Source: a virus. From it: 64,000 bases of DNA. The stretch covers positions 28,213 through 92,212 of the IMG/VR virus record IMGVR_UViG_3300036985_002432. One strand, given 5' to 3'. Shown here piece by piece: positions 15,046 to 55,087 of this stretch. The translations under genes were made by a program, and so were the position numbers. Every line of letters starts with the position of its first letter. The stretch's first letter is position 1. A model generated the notes under the pieces. It worked only from the letters and a program-made list of their open reading frames with translations, had not been told where the DNA came from and searched no databases.

Positions 15046-15053
15046 AATTTTAA

Positions 15054-15068
15054 TATATTTACAATATA
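15054..15068 (+). promoter_or_regulatory. Candidate late promoter, TATATTTACAATATA
   Basis: This is identical in 14 of 15 positions to the motif at 8211-8225. It sits 14 bases before the ATG of the GIY-YIG gene. If the endonuclease gene is an insertion, this promoter would originally have served the 1012-aa virion gene that now starts at 15721. Confidence 0.45.
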
Positions 15069-15082
15069 GATAAAGATTAATT

Positions 15083-15718
15083 ATGGCAACGTATTTACAG
15101 TCAAGTCCCGGAATATATAAAATCACTAGTATGACTAATGGTAAGATATATGTTGGTTGTGCTTCTAATGTAAGAACTAGAATAAATGGACATCTTTATG
15201 ATTTAAGAAGAGAAAAACATAAAAACAGTTATTTACAAAAAGCATGGCTTAAGTATGGTGAAGAGAGTTTTGTTTTTGAAATAATTGAAAAATGTGATAT
15301 AACTGATTTACATGTTAGAGAACACTATTGGGTTAATAAATTTAATTGTCTAGATAGATCTATTGGTTATAATCTAAAACCAACAGATCCTAATGGGTGT
15401 TCTATTCATTCTGAAGAAACAAAAGAAAAATTAAGACAAGCTAATAAAGGTAAAAAACCTTCAGCACTATGTATTCAAAAACTTAAAGAAAGAACTCTTT
15501 CTTCAGAACATAAAGAAATAATGAGAAAGTCAAGAGAAGGTATAGATTATACAAAATTACATAGAGAAAAAAGAGGAAAAAAGGTTATAGACCAATCAAC
15601 AGGAATTATATATACTTCATTAGCTGAAGTTTGTGAATTACTTGGAATAACTAAAGGTTCTTTTTCAAGAATACTATTAGGAAAAAGAAAAAATAAAACA
15701 ACTTTTAAATACTTATAA
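15083..15718 (+). CDS. GIY-YIG homing endonuclease with NUMOD domains
   Basis: A 211-aa free-standing homing endonuclease. GIY is at residues 10-12 and the YIG equivalent, YVG, at 23-25. R33 and E80 fit the catalytic Arg and metal-binding Glu of the family. A NUMOD3-like segment (about 103-125, EETKEKLRQANKGKK) and a NUMOD1-like C-terminal DNA-binding helix region (about 165-205) complete the SegA/I-TevI-like layout. It sits between two virion genes with only 2 bases before the next ATG. Its first five residues, MATYL, are the same as those of the downstream 1012-aa protein, which suggests insertion at that gene's 5' end. Likely a selfish element that spreads by cutting uninterrupted relatives. 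Confidence 0.88.
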   Translation: MATYLQSSPGIYKITSMTNGKIYVGCASNVRTRINGHLYDLRREKHKNSYLQKAWLKYGEESFVFEIIEKCDITDLHVREHYWVNKFNCLDRSIGYNLKPTDPNGCSIHSEETKEKLRQANKGKKPSALCIQKLKERTLSSEHKEIMRKSREGIDYTKLHREKRGKKVIDQSTGIIYTSLAEVCELLGITKGSFSRILLGKRKNKTTFKYL

Positions 15719-15720
15719 CC

Positions 15721-18700
15721 ATGGCGACCTATTTAAGTGGTGTGACAGATTATATACCACAGTTTCAACCCTTTCAACCGGATTTGAATTTCTATAATAA
15801 TGTGTTACAAACAAAGCAAACACAATATGATAGTAACTATAAACAATTAAATAAAATTTATGGTAACTATTTTTATGCTGATTTGACACATGGAGATAAT
15901 ATTCAAAGAAAAGAAGAACTGTTAAAAAATATTGATGTCAGCCTTAAAAAAGTATCTGGCCTTGATTTATCATTGGAACAAAATGTAACTCAAGCAACTC
16001 AAGTTTTTAAACCATTTTATGAAGATCAATATCTTATGAAAGATATGGCCTTTACAAAAAACTATACAGCACAAAGAAATAGAGCTGAAGGTTTAAAGAA
16101 TTCAACAGATGAAGAAAAACGTGGGATGTATTGGGCTGATGGTGTTGCTGCATTAGATTTTCAAAGAGAAGAATTTAAAGAATCTAATATAGGAGATACA
16201 CTTAATATGGCAAATGCTAGTTACACTAACTATATTAATGTTCAAGAAAAAGCAATGAAGTTAACTAAAGAAGCTGGTTTATCAATTGAATCAGTAGACT
16301 TTAGTACAGATGGTAAATATATTGTTACAACTAAAAATGGTGAACAGTTAATGGAACCATTAAGTAAATTACTTGAATCTCAATTAGGATCAGATCCTGC
16401 TATTCAAGAAGTTTATAGAACACAAGCCTATGTAAATAGAAAAACATATGCTGCAGGTAATGCTGCTCAATTTGGTGGTGATAAGAATGCTGCTGAAATG
16501 AAATATCTTGAGACTAACTTTAACATGCTTAAAGCTCAACAACAAAAAAGATATGAGTCATTACAAGATGATTCAAAATCATATGAATCTAGAATTAAAG
16601 ATATACAAAAACAAATTGATGCTGGTAGTAAAAATCCAGACTTACCTAAATCTTTAGCAAGTTTACAACAGGGTAAACAAATAAATGATGATGTACTTGC
16701 AAGAATACAAAAAGATAATGACTCTTTAAAGACAGATGAAAAAACTGCTACTACAACTACTGGATTTGTAAATCCTTATGGTGATATTAAATCATTAAGA
16801 TGGAAAGTAGATAATGCTATGGCATCAATTTTAATGGAAAAAGATCTTGATGAGTCAGCTCAAATATTTGCTTTTAGAGATGCTAAACAAAGTATGGTAG
16901 CAGATCCATTTGCAGTAAGTGCACAGAATCATTCATATAGAATGCAAGAAGTTGCTTCTGCTAATGCAAGTAGAGAAAGAGTTGCTGCTATTAATAATGC
17001 AGCTGCTGATAAAAGAGCAAAGAATACATGGGATTTAAGTACAGGTGCATATCATTATGATACAGAAAAATATATTAAAGATGCTAATGGTGATGATATA
17101 TTAAATCCTAATTATAATCAAGTTGTACCAAATGAATCTTATAGTAATACATTTAGTGAGTTTGAAGATAAAGATATTGCAACTGGAGAGATAAATGTTA
17201 AAAATTTAAGTAGAACAATTTCTCAAAGACAAACAGATCAATATGCTGTACCTTATATGCAACAGTCATTAGCTTTATTAGATAAGTTAGTAACAGAAGG
17301 TGTAATGACTAAAGATCAAGCTAACAAAATATTACATACTGAAAAAGATAAAACTATGACAATTGAGAAGTTCAATAAAGGACTTCAAGGTAATTCAGAA
17401 TATTTTTTAAGAAATACAGTAGGTACAAATAGTTTAACTTGGATTAATAAAAAATTAAATTGGTGGGTAAAAAATAATAAAAGTGTAAGTGCTATTACTA
17501 AAGATGGTATTCCTGGTTATTCAAAAGCAAATGCTGACTTTAATAATTACATAGGTTATCTTGATGAAGATAAGAAATGGAGAAAAGACAGTTCAAAATT
17601 AGTTGAAGATAAACTTAAGTCTCAAGGATTAAAAAATGCACAATATTTATATAAACCTGATGGAACATTAAGAAGTGAAGCTGAATTTATGAAAGTTCTG
17701 CCTAAAGAAAGTAGAGAAGCTATAAATAACAAAGCAAACAAAGCTGCCGTAGATTATCTTACAGGTTTTTCTTTTGATAAAACTTGGACAGGTATTAAAG
17801 AAATATCTAAAATAGCACTAGCTACAACTACTATGAATACAGCTCCAGCAGAACTTGCTAAGGCACTTGCTAATTTACCGGTTGCTCAGCGTGAAGCATA
17901 TAAAAGAAAAATTGAAGAAGCTAAAAAAGAAGCAGGAGGTTATGAAGCTTTACTAAGTGCAGCTGGTAAATCATATTCATCAGCAACTATGAAAAAAGTT
18001 CCACCAGGTATAAGTAGTATTGGTGAAATGAGTGGAGCTGGAGTATTTACTCCAAGTAGACAATCTATTAATGTAGCTCCATTAGCATTTGGTACTAAAG
18101 GAAATGGTTACTTTCATGAATTTGCAAGAGACTTTAGAAAAATAGATTTTGCAACATCTGGTATTAGCTTCCATGGAACAAGTAGTACTAAAGATACTGA
18201 TGCAGGTAAAGCAATGATAAATGCTATGATTTCAGCAATGAATGATACTAAAAGTAAATTTAAACCCTTTAAAATGAGTAGTCAAGCAATTGCTGGAGGA
18301 TCAAGTAATAAAGGTGCAATGATATTACATCCTGATGCCGAATGGTTACAAAATTATATGAAAAGTGAAAAAGGTACAGCTGGACTTATAACTGCAGATG
18401 ATTATAATGCCATATTAACAAATGGTATTAGTGTTGTAAGTGATTCAAAAAACTGGACAAATGGTTTATATACTTCATCTTATTTAGATCCACTTCAATC
18501 TGTTGTAGAATCTAATCCTAATGGTTATGAATGGAATGATCCTTATGGTAACTATAATATGAAGATTAAAAAGAATACAATGGGCACTGGTGATTATAAT
18601 ATTCAAAGAACTTATAGATTATTAAATCAAGAAACAGGACAATATGAAGAAGTTTCAACTTTAAATAATACTAGTGTAATTGGTAATAATTTATCTAATG

Positions 18701-18759
18701 TTCAAAGAGGTATGTTTAATGAATCAGAAGAAGTAAGAACATATAATCAAGGATACTAA
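15721..18759 (+). CDS. crAss-like virion protein, function unknown
   Basis: A 1,012-aa protein starting MATYLSGVTDYIPQFQPFQP. It is largely alpha-helical and charged, with probable coiled coils near 255-330 (KAQQQKRYESLQDDSKSYES onward) and an Ala/Arg-rich helix near 410-440. There is no signal peptide or recognised enzyme motif. It directly precedes the giant RNA polymerase-region genes, and its stop overlaps the ATG of the next gene, so it is probably translated with them and packaged as a cargo or ejection protein. ATG 15721 is supported because the short gap after the endonuclease leaves no better start. Confidence 0.55.
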   Translation: MATYLSGVTDYIPQFQPFQPDLNFYNNVLQTKQTQYDSNYKQLNKIYGNYFYADLTHGDNIQRKEELLKNIDVSLKKVSGLDLSLEQNVTQATQVFKPFYEDQYLMKDMAFTKNYTAQRNRAEGLKNSTDEEKRGMYWADGVAALDFQREEFKESNIGDTLNMANASYTNYINVQEKAMKLTKEAGLSIESVDFSTDGKYIVTTKNGEQLMEPLSKLLESQLGSDPAIQEVYRTQAYVNRKTYAAGNAAQFGGDKNAAEMKYLETNFNMLKAQQQKRYESLQDDSKSYESRIKDIQKQIDAGSKNPDLPKSLASLQQGKQINDDVLARIQKDNDSLKTDEKTATTTTGFVNPYGDIKSLRWKVDNAMASILMEKDLDESAQIFAFRDAKQSMVADPFAVSAQNHSYRMQEVASANASRERVAAINNAAADKRAKNTWDLSTGAYHYDTEKYIKDANGDDILNPNYNQVVPNESYSNTFSEFEDKDIATGEINVKNLSRTISQRQTDQYAVPYMQQSLALLDKLVTEGVMTKDQANKILHTEKDKTMTIEKFNKGLQGNSEYFLRNTVGTNSLTWINKKLNWWVKNNKSVSAITKDGIPGYSKANADFNNYIGYLDEDKKWRKDSSKLVEDKLKSQGLKNAQYLYKPDGTLRSEAEFMKVLPKESREAINNKANKAAVDYLTGFSFDKTWTGIKEISKIALATTTMNTAPAELAKALANLPVAQREAYKRKIEEAKKEAGGYEALLSAAGKSYSSATMKKVPPGISSIGEMSGAGVFTPSRQSINVAPLAFGTKGNGYFHEFARDFRKIDFATSGISFHGTSSTKDTDAGKAMINAMISAMNDTKSKFKPFKMSSQAIAGGSSNKGAMILHPDAEWLQNYMKSEKGTAGLITADDYNAILTNGISVVSDSKNWTNGLYTSSYLDPLQSVVESNPNGYEWNDPYGNYNMKIKKNTMGTGDYNIQRTYRLLNQETGQYEEVSTLNNTSVIGNNLSNVQRGMFNESEEVRTYNQGY

Positions 18760-50238: not shown

Positions 50239-51414
50239 TTACTTGACAGCCATTTTTACAACTGCGTTGTCTCTCATCATTGCTGCAAATTTTACTTTAT
50301 TGCCATTAACAATTTCTTTAACCATGAAATATCTCAAGTCATTAGTAAATGCATCACAATCTGTAGTAAGTTTTACTAATCTATCAATCATTGGAGCTCC
50401 AATTGCATTCTTTTCTGCATGAGTCAAACAATAGTTTACAATTCTAGTTGCAATTACACTTGATATATCTGCTCTAAATTCATCTCCAGAACCAACAGCA
50501 CTTGTTAAAGCACCTAAAACATAAGCTTCATTAACATTTGTTACTGCATCTTTTGGAGATATAATTTTATCAAGTTTATTATTGATAAACATAGTAAACA
50601 TACTTGAGAATTCTGGTCCAACAGAACCTTCACCAATCATTTGAATTAATGGTAACTCATCTTCAAACTTTTGAATAGAACTAATAGAGTTAAAGAAAGT
50701 AGTAATACTTCTTGGATTAACTCTTTGAGTTACTAATTCAGGATTCATCAATAAGAAATTTATACATCTACCATCAATGTTTACTGCTTCTGCCCATCTT
50801 GCCCATACATTAACATCAAATTTAACCTCAACTGAAACAAATCTAGTTTTCTGTGCAACATCTAAAGAAGTTACATTATAATCACCATTGTCTGGATTAG
50901 AAGTTAAGATTACATGCCAGTTTTTTGGAAGACTCCAAGAAATATATTCTTGTCTGTCTATTAATTCCATTGTAGCTTGCATAAATCTATGATCAGCTCT
51001 TGTATAATCATCTAGGATAAGAAATCCACCTTCTGTTTGACCTTGAATCCATTCAGGAGCAGCATGTGACATACGGCTTTGATTAGTAGGTCTATATTTA
51101 TTTTTGATATAAGTTTCCATTAAAGTTTCTTGTACCCAAGTTACTTTACCATCTTCTCTAATCATCTCAAATTCTTTAAACGGGAAACCAATTAAGTCAC
51201 CCAACTCTTCTATCTGTGATAGATTTAATTTTACAACTGACATACTAAGTTCATTAGCAAGTTGCATTAAAGATGAAGTCTTACCAAGACCTGCATCACC
51301 TTCAATATTTACTGCAACTGGCACTTTACCTTGTGCTTGAATATACTGGTTATTATTAACCATGTGCTTTAAATAACCTTTTAATTCATCTACGTTTAAT
51401 TGTACTTGACTCAT
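50239..51414 (-). CDS. MoxR-type AAA+ ATPase
   Basis: A 391-aa ATPase. Walker A GDAGLGKTS is at 39-47, Walker B-like LILDD with YTRADHRFMQATMELID follows, and sensor-1 is seen in HVILTSNPDNGDYNV. An arginine after the sensor (QKTRFVSVEV) fits the MoxR/CbbQ lineage. Proteins of this group work with VWA-domain partners to remodel or activate target proteins, and such a partner (52212-53408) is encoded just upstream, split from it only by a homing-endonuclease gene. The phage target is unknown; a role in replication complex or host-protein remodelling is plausible. Confidence 0.82.
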   Translation of the reverse strand: MSQVQLNVDELKGYLKHMVNNNQYIQAQGKVPVAVNIEGDAGLGKTSSLMQLANELSMSVVKLNLSQIEELGDLIGFPFKEFEMIREDGKVTWVQETLMETYIKNKYRPTNQSRMSHAAPEWIQGQTEGGFLILDDYTRADHRFMQATMELIDRQEYISWSLPKNWHVILTSNPDNGDYNVTSLDVAQKTRFVSVEVKFDVNVWARWAEAVNIDGRCINFLLMNPELVTQRVNPRSITTFFNSISSIQKFEDELPLIQMIGEGSVGPEFSSMFTMFINNKLDKIISPKDAVTNVNEAYVLGALTSAVGSGDEFRADISSVIATRIVNYCLTHAEKNAIGAPMIDRLVKLTTDCDAFTNDLRYFMVKEIVNGNKVKFAAMMRDNAVVKMAVK

Positions 51415-51424
51415 CTTTCTTTTT

Positions 51425-52165
51425 TTATAGTTCTAATTTAATTACTTTTCCCTTACACTTAAATCCATGTGTAAGAGCTTTTCTAACTGTGCCTTCATTG
51501 GCATTAATATATACAGCTGCTTCTTTTATACTATTAACCTTAATCTCAATTCCTTGATCAATAATTATAAGATTTTTAACAGTCCGGGGATTTCTTTGTC
51601 TTTTAGAAATACATTGAATTGTATTTAGTTTTTCTTTTTTCCATTGATATCCACTAGCAGATTTAATATCTCCTTTTGCAGCATCTCCTATAGATGTAGC
51701 ATTTCCATTAATAGCTAAAGCAGCTTTTCTTATTGTATCATATTCATTTACATAATTACCATCCAAAGTATACTGATATACTTTTATTGAAGCATGATTT
51801 TCTTTACCTAACCTTTTATTTGTGTTAGCCATACTTAACTTTTTTCTTGTTTCAACACTTTTTGCATGTGTTACAGGATTCCTTTCTACATTTACATCAC
51901 AATTATAGTATTCAATATAATAAGCTTCTCTTTCTATGTAATTATCACAAATTTCAATAAGTTTAAAACTAATATCATTGGGATACTTATCATAAATTCT
52001 TTGTAAAAAACTATTATAATGTTTTCCTTTTCTTAATACAAGTACATGTTGCTTATACCTTTCATATAAACTAATACTGCTTCCAATATATTTGTGAGAA
52101 TTACACTCAATAATATATACCCCAGATTTTCTAACTAAATCTTCTTTTAATGTTAATAATTTCAT
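51425..52165 (-). CDS. GIY-YIG homing endonuclease between the VWA and AAA+ genes
   Basis: 246 aa from ATG at 52165 (an in-frame TTG at 52171 overlaps the promoter box). GVYIIE (15-20) and KYIGSS (25-30) form the GIY-YIG pair, R36 (YERY) and E80 in IEREAYYIEYYN fit the active site, and NUMOD-like repeats follow at about 125-175 and 200-240. The last residues, GKVIKLEL, are the same as the last residues of the upstream VWA protein. The gene has its own TATATTTG box 3 bases before the ATG, implying a leaderless transcript, and lies between perfect 17-bp inverted repeats. Likely a selfish insertion that splits a functional gene pair. Confidence 0.88.
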   Translation of the reverse strand: MKLLTLKEDLVRKSGVYIIECNSHKYIGSSISLYERYKQHVLVLRKGKHYNSFLQRIYDKYPNDISFKLIEICDNYIEREAYYIEYYNCDVNVERNPVTHAKSVETRKKLSMANTNKRLGKENHASIKVYQYTLDGNYVNEYDTIRKAALAINGNATSIGDAAKGDIKSASGYQWKKEKLNTIQCISKRQRNPRTVKNLIIIDQGIEIKVNSIKEAAVYINANEGTVRKALTHGFKCKGKVIKLEL

Positions 52166-52211
52166 ATACAAATATACATATAAAAAATGTGATCAAGTAA
52201 TTAAATTAGAA
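51431..52211. repeat. Perfect 17-bp inverted repeat flanking the GIY-YIG gene
   Basis: TTCTAATTTAATTACTT at 51431-51447 recurs as its exact reverse complement at 52195-52211. The first copy encodes the end of the GIY-YIG protein on the opposite strand; the second follows the VWA stop. The coordinates given span the element between the arms. Confidence 0.8.
52169..52176 (-). promoter_or_regulatory. TATATTTG promoter box, leaderless arrangement
   Basis: Minus-strand TATATTTGTATATG, with the ATG of the GIY-YIG gene beginning 3 bases after the box. A start site about 4-5 bases after TAnnTTTG would fall on the ATG. A TTG lies 17 bases upstream of the box as a possible -33 element. Confidence 0.55.
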
Positions 52212-53408
52212 TTAAAGTTCAAGTTTTATAACTTTTCCCGGAAGTTCCGTGTTTAATTCTGATTGTTCAGAAATTACCCATAATACGGGTGCTTTTGGTT
52301 TAACATCTGCTGTACATTCACCATCAGTAAAATATACTAAACTTGTATATTTCCGCAGATTCTCATTATAATATTCCAAAACTGGATCAAATTCAGTACC
52401 GCCTCTGCCAGATATAGCAATGCCTCCAAATTTACCAGTATATTCTTTTATACTTTGTATTACAGTATCACATTGAATTATAGTAATACCAACTCCAGAC
52501 TTATGAATATGATGTATCTCATTCATAAATTCTTTAAGTTCTTGATCACTTACAGATCCAGAAGTATCAATAGCCAATAACATATGTTGCCTCATCTTAA
52601 TCTTAAGACCCGGATTATCTGTATATCTTCTATTTTCTTTTCTTCTAATCTTCTTAGTAAATACTTTTGTGCTAACACCAGTAAACCTACGGATATAACT
52701 TTTCCAGTCAAACTTAGGCTTTTCAATCTTATCCATTTCAAGTAGATAATCACTCAATTCTCCAGGTATATTACCTCTTTTCTTTTGAGTCATTTCTGCT
52801 GCATGTTTTAACAGAGTATCTACTTGTTTATTAATTAACTTTTGCTCAGCTTCAGATAAATTAGCAAACTCATCCCATGTAGGATGATCTGATGGGTATC
52901 CATCTTCAGAATCCATTTGATCACATAATTGATCAAAGTTTGCATCTCCAGATGTACCATTTTTATCTTTTTCTTCTTTAGCTTCACTAAGTTTATCATA
53001 ATAATATCTAGTACCTGCTTTAAGATCAAGATTAAGATCTGGATAATCTTCAATCATAATACCACCTTCAGGTAGTAAGTGAGATAGAATATACTGATTA
53101 ATCTCCATATCCATAGCTGTATTAGCTAATTTTCTATCAGAATACTTATGGTGTTCTGTAAGATGAAAGAAAGCAATATGTAATAGCTCATGTTTAAGTA
53201 ATCCAAATTTATGGTCATCACTAAGTGTTTCCCAAAACTCTGGATTTATAGCCAACTGGTAATTAATACCATTTTTACTTACTCCGGCTGTAGGAACAAC
53301 TCTTTTGTTCCATATTTTATTTAACATTATCAGTAAAAAACCATAAAATGGCTCAGCCAAAATAAGATTTTTACTTATCTTGGCTAAAGAATCTTCTTTA
53401 CTCTGCAT
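52212..53408 (-). CDS. VWA-domain protein with DUF2201-type HExxH N-terminus
   Basis: A 398-aa protein. The N-terminal half shows HELLHIAFFH (H73, E74, H77) with NTAMDMEIN about 25 residues later, the pattern of the DUF2201/'putative metallopeptidase' domain. The C-terminal half is a VWA-like domain with MIDAS start DTSGS (281-285), a GGTEF segment supplying the conserved Thr, and YFTDGE for the last metal ligand. Such proteins partner MoxR-type ATPases, and one is encoded downstream (50239-51414) beyond an inserted GIY-YIG gene. The last eight residues, GKVIKLEL, are repeated at the end of that inserted gene. The start overlaps the previous gene by 11 bases. Confidence 0.83.
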   Translation of the reverse strand: MQSKEDSLAKISKNLILAEPFYGFLLIMLNKIWNKRVVPTAGVSKNGINYQLAINPEFWETLSDDHKFGLLKHELLHIAFFHLTEHHKYSDRKLANTAMDMEINQYILSHLLPEGGIMIEDYPDLNLDLKAGTRYYYDKLSEAKEEKDKNGTSGDANFDQLCDQMDSEDGYPSDHPTWDEFANLSEAEQKLINKQVDTLLKHAAEMTQKKRGNIPGELSDYLLEMDKIEKPKFDWKSYIRRFTGVSTKVFTKKIRRKENRRYTDNPGLKIKMRQHMLLAIDTSGSVSDQELKEFMNEIHHIHKSGVGITIIQCDTVIQSIKEYTGKFGGIAISGRGGTEFDPVLEYYNENLRKYTSLVYFTDGECTADVKPKAPVLWVISEQSELNTELPGKVIKLEL

Positions 53409-54334: not shown

Positions 54335-55087
54335 TCAAAATAAATTATCATGAATAGCCTTTATCCATGTTTTAAATTCTGCAAGTGTCATCTTACCTTT
54401 ACATCTATTACATTGTTTACAACAAGCAACACAGTTTTCCTTATTATATCCAATAGTATTATCTACTCTATCTATCCCATTATAATAAAACGGAACACCT
54501 GATCTAACTTTTTTAGTTCTAGCATCTAATATTTGATATAACTGAGAAGGTTGTCTATTACAATAAGTACAATTATTAGAACTGATATTAATTAATTCAT
54601 CAAGTGTTAATTTAAAATCAAGTTCTCTTTCTTTTGCATGATAAACATATGATCTATACAAACCTTTATAACCAGTAAGTATGTTTTTTTTATTTTCAAA
54701 AGGAAAACATGGAGATTTACCACAAGTTCTTGTATTCCCATTTATAACAGCACTGTAAGGAAGCCATTTTTGATCTCCACATTCACATTGCACATGTAAT
54801 AAAGTGGATGTCTTATTATCTTTTTTAACACTTTTTCTACCAAGATATATAAACTTTGTAGGATCTCCATGTTTACTATAAAGTTTTTGATTTAATTCAA
54901 ATTCTTTTCTAGTAACTGCAGCTTTACCTTTCTCATATATCTTATTAAGATTATTTCTTTTAACAACTCTTTCAATGATACCTCTTTTTAAACTTTCTTG
55001 TTTTGCAAATGCCAACATACTAAGTGAACTGTTTAAATATTTGGTAATCAACTGTTTTTCTTGCTCTGAACCAGGAAGTATTTTCAT
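54335..55087 (-). CDS. HNH homing endonuclease
   Basis: 250 aa from ATG at 55087; an in-frame extension to 55129 runs through the promoter box and is rejected. An N-terminal helical region (1-70) precedes a Cys cluster (C101, C103, C122, C127) that could bind zinc, then the HNH core: NNCTYCNR (C173, C176), YNGIDRVDN (204-210) and ENCVACCKQCNRCKG (219-231). This is the layout of phage free-standing HNH endonucleases with a structural zinc. It has its own TATATTTG promoter box and interrupts a run of tightly coupled small genes. The genes on both sides share the ending KTLKIED, which suggests insertion at a duplicated boundary. Confidence 0.82.
   Translation of the reverse strand: MKILPGSEQEKQLITKYLNSSLSMLAFAKQESLKRGIIERVVKRNNLNKIYEKGKAAVTRKEFELNQKLYSKHGDPTKFIYLGRKSVKKDNKTSTLLHVQCECGDQKWLPYSAVINGNTRTCGKSPCFPFENKKNILTGYKGLYRSYVYHAKERELDFKLTLDELINISSNNCTYCNRQPSQLYQILDARTKKVRSGVPFYYNGIDRVDNTIGYNKENCVACCKQCNRCKGKMTLAEFKTWIKAIHDNLF

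Follow-up and report, generated by a model that had tools for sequence, protein, structure and literature searches.

The window analysed here, meaning the whole stretch of DNA under study, covers 64 kb out of a virus record of 92,212 bases, and a Crassvirus muzzle protein marks the phage, on sequence, as Crassvirales-like. DNA relatives of the window were not found in public phage records, nor were relatives of the homing endonuclease gene (HEG) described below in the genome contigs collection searched. The locus comprises the following features, all on the − strand.

52212–53408 (−): VWA/metallopeptidase-like target gene (DUF2201/DUF2201_N; Pfam PF09967, E 4e-20, and PF13203, E 5e-18), with homologues in 224 classified loci.
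52212–52244 (−): re-spelled VWA tail, codons −11 to stop, assigned to the element by a codon test of 17 occupied against 117 empty alleles and by the left unit edge in L078 versus L102.
52195–52211 (−): inverted arm, on arm comparison a reverse-complement copy of the native VWA tail and a putative operator; CNNNG absent at the equivalent position in 17/17 alleles.
52169–52196 (−): promoter-like TTG-N17-TATATTTG of putative function; TATATTTG is kept in 16/17 leaders and the element overlaps the arm end.
51425–52165 (−): GIY-YIG/NUMOD1 HEG, 246 aa (Pfam GIY-YIG, PF01541, E 2e-6; NUMOD1, PF07453, E 3e-11); its model matches the I-TevI catalytic domain.
51425–51451 (−): captured native VWA tail and stop, forming the last 8 HEG residues (last beta strand, 240–244 in the model); 26–27 of 27 positions agree with the nearest empty sites in the clearest pairs.
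50239–51414 (−): gene for a MoxR-like AAA ATPase, lying downstream of the junction (phrog_1297, E 1e-30).

The HEG is likely to start at the ATG at 52165 rather than the TTG at 52171, and its above-cut-off matches to PF01541 and PF07453 correspond to a GIY-YIG catalytic domain and a separate DNA-binding (NUMOD) domain. Both the HEG and VWA proteins end GKVIKLEL, as the first-pass annotation had observed; direct repeat D2 (51425–51452 versus 52212–52239) is identical at 23 of 28 positions, and the 17-nt inverted repeat TTCTAATTTAATTACTT (51431–51447 and 52195–52211) is exact, with 95% identity over 20 nt.

Occupied and empty alleles at the VWA–MoxR junction

Loci were gathered by searches with three VWA proteins and the HEG, yielding 224 that were classifiable and 141 that were distinct, the latter comprising 17 loci occupied by this HEG family, 117 simple empty sites (<30 nt between VWA and MoxR) and 7 with other inserts. 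The anatomy was the same at every occupied locus. VWA genes in the empty sites inspected end LPGKVIKLEL or a close variant, so that this ending is ancestral to VWA, and one locus (L001) is empty though it shares 93% identity with the window over the VWA DNA and 94.5% over MoxR. The comparison bears out two earlier proposals, namely that homing targets the VWA 3′ end, given that KVIKLEL is retained as the ending in empty relatives and that the junction lies at VWA codons −10/−9, and that the duplicate ending belongs to homing. The idea of a palindromic VWA 3′ end had to be abandoned: empty alleles are not palindromic, and their spacers to MoxR lack the inverted arm, which moves with the element. 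Insert-free relatives thus carry the anticipated KVIKLEL-like ending at the VWA–MoxR junction but not the inverted arm.

Between occupied alleles the HEG is consistently closer than the VWA gene, identities being 97.1 versus 73.3% for L078/L102, 90.3 versus 70.2% for the window and L083, and 100 versus 91.3% for L098/L100. Near-identical elements in diverged phages indicate that the unit moves, and the presence of occupied and empty alleles at one site (17 versus 117), together with the horizontal spread of a gene far closer than its flanks, is as expected of a homing endonuclease. The L078/L102 pair also places the edges of the unit: on the left, identity is complete from CTTCC at VWA codon −11 through the re-spelled tail, the arm and the HEG, whilst on the right it falls right after TGTAAA, ahead of the native tail. 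From these edges, the transferred unit consists of the re-spelled tail, arm, promoter and HEG body, and the last eight HEG residues and stop are supplied by the recipient, not by the unit. In a different pair, the window and L078, the ~75 nt with which the HEG body ends, next to the captured tail (within 51425–51510, −), are nearly identical, synonymous sites included, despite HEG proteins that are merely 63% identical overall, which suggests recent conversion or DNA-level constraint.

A further short insert of ~180–190 nt, apparently a small ORF, lies at the same VWA–MoxR junction in L021, L027, L069, L071, L155, L197 and L231, and group I introns with GIY-YIG ORFs interrupt the MoxR genes of L090, L014, L020 (two introns) and L029; the VWA–MoxR locus is a hot spot for homing elements. 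Given that the GIY-YIG genes within MoxR of these relatives do sit in group I introns, the insert of the window might itself be thought a group I intron or an intein that is spliced out. This is extremely improbable, as VWA is terminated by a stop of its own ahead of the insert, each of the two ORFs is complete, and no Rfam group I intron was found in the window, which sets this HEG apart from intron-encoded endonucleases.

Exchange of tails between the VWA gene and the HEG

The VWA tails of occupied and empty alleles differ in codon use. At codon −9, GGA occurs in 17/17 occupied versus 29/117 empty alleles; at codon −6, an Ile codon other than ATT in 15/17 versus 17/117; and CTT encodes Leu at codon −4 in 17/17 versus 4/117 (Fisher p 4e-18) and at codon −2 in 17/17 versus 20/117. 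Because the near-identical alleles L095–L100 are not independent, identical tails were also collapsed, giving CTT at codon −4 in 11/11 occupied versus 3/69 empty. The HEG tails, by comparison, resemble the empty tails at codons −7 to −2, with TTA at −4 in 16/17 and ATT at −6 in 15/17. Taken with the spacer, the HEG tail agrees with the nearest empty relative at 27/27 positions in L088/L154 and L083/L074 and at 26/27 in L097/L110 and L102/L202. In L084 the HEG ends GKVIKLEI with a spacer of the empty-relative type, this being the ending of the empty class of L016, its nearest MoxR relative, whilst the L084 VWA protein ends KLEL like those of all other occupied alleles. On this sequence evidence, with L084 taken as decisive, the HEG tail is the original native VWA tail, displaced, and the present VWA tail of occupied alleles is a synonymously re-spelled copy carried by the element; the earlier interpretation of the duplication as a repair footprint is accordingly replaced. 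The native end forms the in-frame HEG C-terminus in 17/17 alleles.

An AlphaFold model of the HEG, built from an alignment of 11 homologues (pLDDT 72 on average and near 60 in the tail), comprises a GIY-YIG domain, a linker, a NUMOD1 repeat (127–179) and a second repeat (199–244) whose last strand is VIKLE (residues 240–244), from the borrowed tail. The best PDB match was the I-TevI catalytic domain, followed by I-HmuI. With moderate confidence, the borrowed VIKLE is predicted to be the final strand of the HEG DNA-binding domain. NUMOD-like repeats often finish with a short strand after Gly, and a similar peptide could evolve at such a repeat end, so that the shared GKVIKLEL might be ascribed to coincidence or to convergence on a common C-terminal motif. 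We give this next to no weight, as the nucleotide match and the spacer are common with empty relatives, the agreement of up to 27/27 nt between HEG tails and nearest empty-site VWA tails rules out chance for the direct repeat, and the L084 HEG tail follows the host allele (KLEI) and not the element. A coincidental shared peptide was therefore refuted by the empty-site nucleotide comparison.

It is a separate question why the VWA tail is spelled as it is. The tail of occupied alleles could be a foreign one from a distant phage, its spelling reflecting divergence and not adaptation against recutting or recombination; for fungal mobile ORFs the inserted C-terminus is likewise described as foreign (PMC3630166), and all changes here are synonymous or conservative. 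Yet the changed codons are almost invariant across elements with HEG proteins down to ~61% identity, including both CTT Leu codons (−4 and −2, 17/17), and we regard simple divergence as possible but rather doubtful. Common descent of the elements could partly account for the constancy of the re-spelled tail. Within an allele the Q/K/H residues agree between VWA and HEG tails, implying that conversion tracts vary or that VWA function constrains the tails. Four empty sites (L002, L015, L124 and L126) have, like occupied alleles, CTT at codon −4, followed by native-type ends; recombination between the two tails might have left these as scars when an element was lost, or the alleles may be resistant.

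Inverted arm, junctions and proposed mechanism

The arm starts directly past the VWA stop in every occupied allele, and its reverse complement reads GTAATWWAATTRGAA in most of them. Over 14 distinct allele sets it matches the HEG tail of its own allele at 202/238 positions (85%), the adjacent VWA tail at 167/238 (70%) and the HEG tail at all other offsets at ≤52%, whilst none of 91,272 control 17-mers exceeded 13/17, which rules out chance for the arm as well. Because the native tail is matched better than the adjacent VWA tail, the arm is read as an inverted copy of the native target and not as half of a VWA hairpin, and by the same allele comparison it belongs to the element. The imperfect pairing of arm and VWA 3′ end reported in the first-pass annotation holds as a match of 13/17 in the window but does not amount to a structure: an RNA hairpin of VWA tail and arm was rejected, with z-scores of −0.7 to +1.3 versus shuffles in six alleles. 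Transposon terminal inverted repeats were likewise rejected: on the left the re-spelled tail lies beyond the arm, and on the right the arm consists of host sequence.

Just ahead of the HEG ATG the arm overlaps the TTG of TTG-N17-TATATTTG, an element that resembles the consensus of Bacteroidota promoters. Where the cut motif would fall, the arm reads TGTGA or TGTAA, not CNNNG, in 17/17 alleles, so that a homing-site-like sequence stripped of its cut motif stands at the putative HEG promoter. I-TevI, from the td intron of phage T4, is likewise a GIY-YIG nuclease with a CNNNG cut motif at a distance from its bound site, and has a homing-site-like copy overlapping its own promoter without a suitably placed CNNNG, this operator being cut less because CXXXG is missing (PMC2988022). 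It differs in being encoded in a group I intron and in having a tested operator (PMC2988022), whereas in the phage no intron is present, the copy runs in the opposite orientation and repression is suggested by analogy. We slightly favour the arm as an I-TevI-like operator for autorepression. It is quite conceivable, though not our first choice, that the arm has no regulatory role and is a leftover inverted duplication, of a kind that repair could generate, or pairs with the VWA 3′ end as a terminator hairpin; its position immediately after the VWA stop and the 13/17 pairing would suit this. The folding result, the closer match to the native tail, the overlap with the promoter-like element, the missing CNNNG and the retention of the arm in 17/17 alleles, although the HEG proteins differ by up to 40%, argue for the operator instead.

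The HEG is inserted ~27–30 nt ahead of the VWA stop, at CCN/GGN (the slash marking the junction) between codons −10 and −9. CCNGG is present in 117/117 empty sites, a count that proves little as LPG is also a protein constraint, and it fits the CXXXG cut preference of I-TevI (PMC2988022). In occupied alleles the left junction retains CCNGG with its downstream half re-spelled, whilst the right-junction pentamer is AARGG or AAAAR and has no C. Neither junction would be a full target, should the native tail be the binding site of the enzyme and CCNGG its cut site.

We propose, with a probability of roughly 0.85 for the explanation as a whole, that this is an end-swapping free-standing homing endonuclease gene at the VWA 3′ end. 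On this view the native tail (GTNATNAARTTAGAA...) of an empty allele would serve as the binding site and CCNGG, which has the form CNNNG, as the site of cutting; repair would then copy the unit into the cut allele, placing the free-standing GIY-YIG HEG inside the VWA coding sequence at CCN/GGN. Both genes stay intact through an exchange of ends: the displaced native VWA tail and stop complete the HEG ORF in frame and provide the predicted last strand of its DNA-binding domain, whilst the element's synonymously re-spelled tail restores VWA. After insertion the left junction keeps CCNGG with a re-spelled binding half and the right junction keeps the binding half with CC changed to AA, probably rendering both resistant; the arm overlapping the putative HEG promoter would present a binding half lacking the cut motif, through which the enzyme probably represses itself as I-TevI does. 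The allele comparison demonstrates the mobility, the junctions, the exchange of ends, the re-spelling and the identity of the arm, whereas the place of cutting, the resistance and the autorepression are inferences drawn from it.

A second site in the same phage and known systems

A mirror-image case lies elsewhere in the window, with the following features.

15083–15718 (+): second GIY-YIG HEG (HEG2; PF01541, E 2e-8; phrog_314, E 1e-35), with 15 distinct occupied alleles.
15049–15100 (+): start region of HEG2, captured from the downstream gene: its native leader, start codon and codons 1–6 (MATYLQ); (near-)identical to empty sites, e.g. L278 versus L274.
15721–18759 (+): site 2 target gene, 1012 aa, with codons 1–6 (15721–15738) re-spelled according to allele comparison.

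The HEG2 protein starts MATYLQ, and the product of the gene behind it starts MATYL. We compared the 15 distinct HEG2-occupied alleles with 52 other alleles, among which L240, L296 and L327 seem to carry other or partial HEGs. The leader and first six codons of HEG2 are those of empty sites (34/34 leader and 18/18 codon positions for L278 versus L274, and likewise for L286 versus L297), whilst behind HEG2 the target gene begins with re-spelled codons and has hardly any leader. Over the 15 alleles, HEG2 starts agree with the empty gene of nearest leader at 241/270 positions, as against 177/270 for the adjacent gene starts. Once more the junction is within a CNNNG, which is CAAGG or CAGGG in 44/52 of the non-occupied alleles. 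The same phage thus harbours an unrelated insertion that captures a native start and leader. L240 has an HNH-type endonuclease gene, unlike HEG2, at the site of HEG2, and here too the site 2 gene start, ATGGCGACC, departs from that of most empty sites; the leader of L296 ends like the L240 HNH gene. In the window, an HNH/endonuclease VII-like gene (54335–55087, −) has a TATATTTG box upstream, and three ORFs nearby end LKIED, two of them IKTLKIED. A third end swap was sought at this gene: LKIED endings are common to its neighbours, but capture could not be demonstrated.

That an endonuclease ORF can carry a replacement gene end is already known from the mobile ORFs of Allomyces (atp6) and Glomus (atp6, atp9, cox2 and nad3) mitochondria, the closest precedent, in which the ORF brings a foreign copy of the host gene C-terminus, the native C-terminus persists downstream and matches relatives, and the changes are largely synonymous (PMC3630166). 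The phage HEG does likewise: a substitute end arrives with it, and the native one is retained past the ORF. The fungal cases differ in being mitochondrial and, apart from atp9 (GIY-YIG), of the LAGLIDADG type; their native end is described as a leftover and not as the endonuclease's own C-terminus, and the text consulted mentions neither an inverted operator-like arm nor a gene-start mirror case (PMC3630166). In the phage the native end is no separate remnant but the in-frame HEG C-terminus. The free-standing GIY-YIG endonucleases of the T4 seg family are also intergenic, phage-borne and mobile without an intron, but cut hundreds to thousands of bp from their insertion (PMC2988022), whereas the phage HEG lies at the target itself, within coding sequence and with an exchange of ends. 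In mobE of Aeh1 nrdA and mobA of T4 gene 60 the endonuclease gene likewise lies within a host coding sequence, but the host gene is split into two polypeptides (PMC2988022), whilst here it is restored in one piece. No phage example of such an end exchange was found in the open-access literature searched, which is weak evidence as most subscription papers lie outside it. We read the locus as an end-swapping free-standing HEG of a phage, a variant of this known principle, and the genome holds its mirror-image counterpart at site 2.

We consider it somewhat probable that Crassvirales-type phages carry a general kind of free-standing, end-swapping HEG that its own insertion site completes. At a 3′ end such a gene would take over the stop and last strand of its target, and at a 5′ end the leader, start and first codons; in return the target would receive a re-spelled end, and the HEG would regulate itself via an inverted target copy. 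The case shows how a selfish gene with neither intron nor intein can enter an apparently conserved coding sequence and leave it unbroken, by trading ends. Whilst free-standing endonucleases of phages have been described as cutting far away, here insertion and target coincide, with gene-end and gene-start forms in one phage, connecting phage biology to the mobile ORFs of fungal mitochondria. The native tail, the re-spelled tail and the inverted arm provide short testable sites, and such genomes call for caution, since a gene may begin or end in codons that are replaced sequence.
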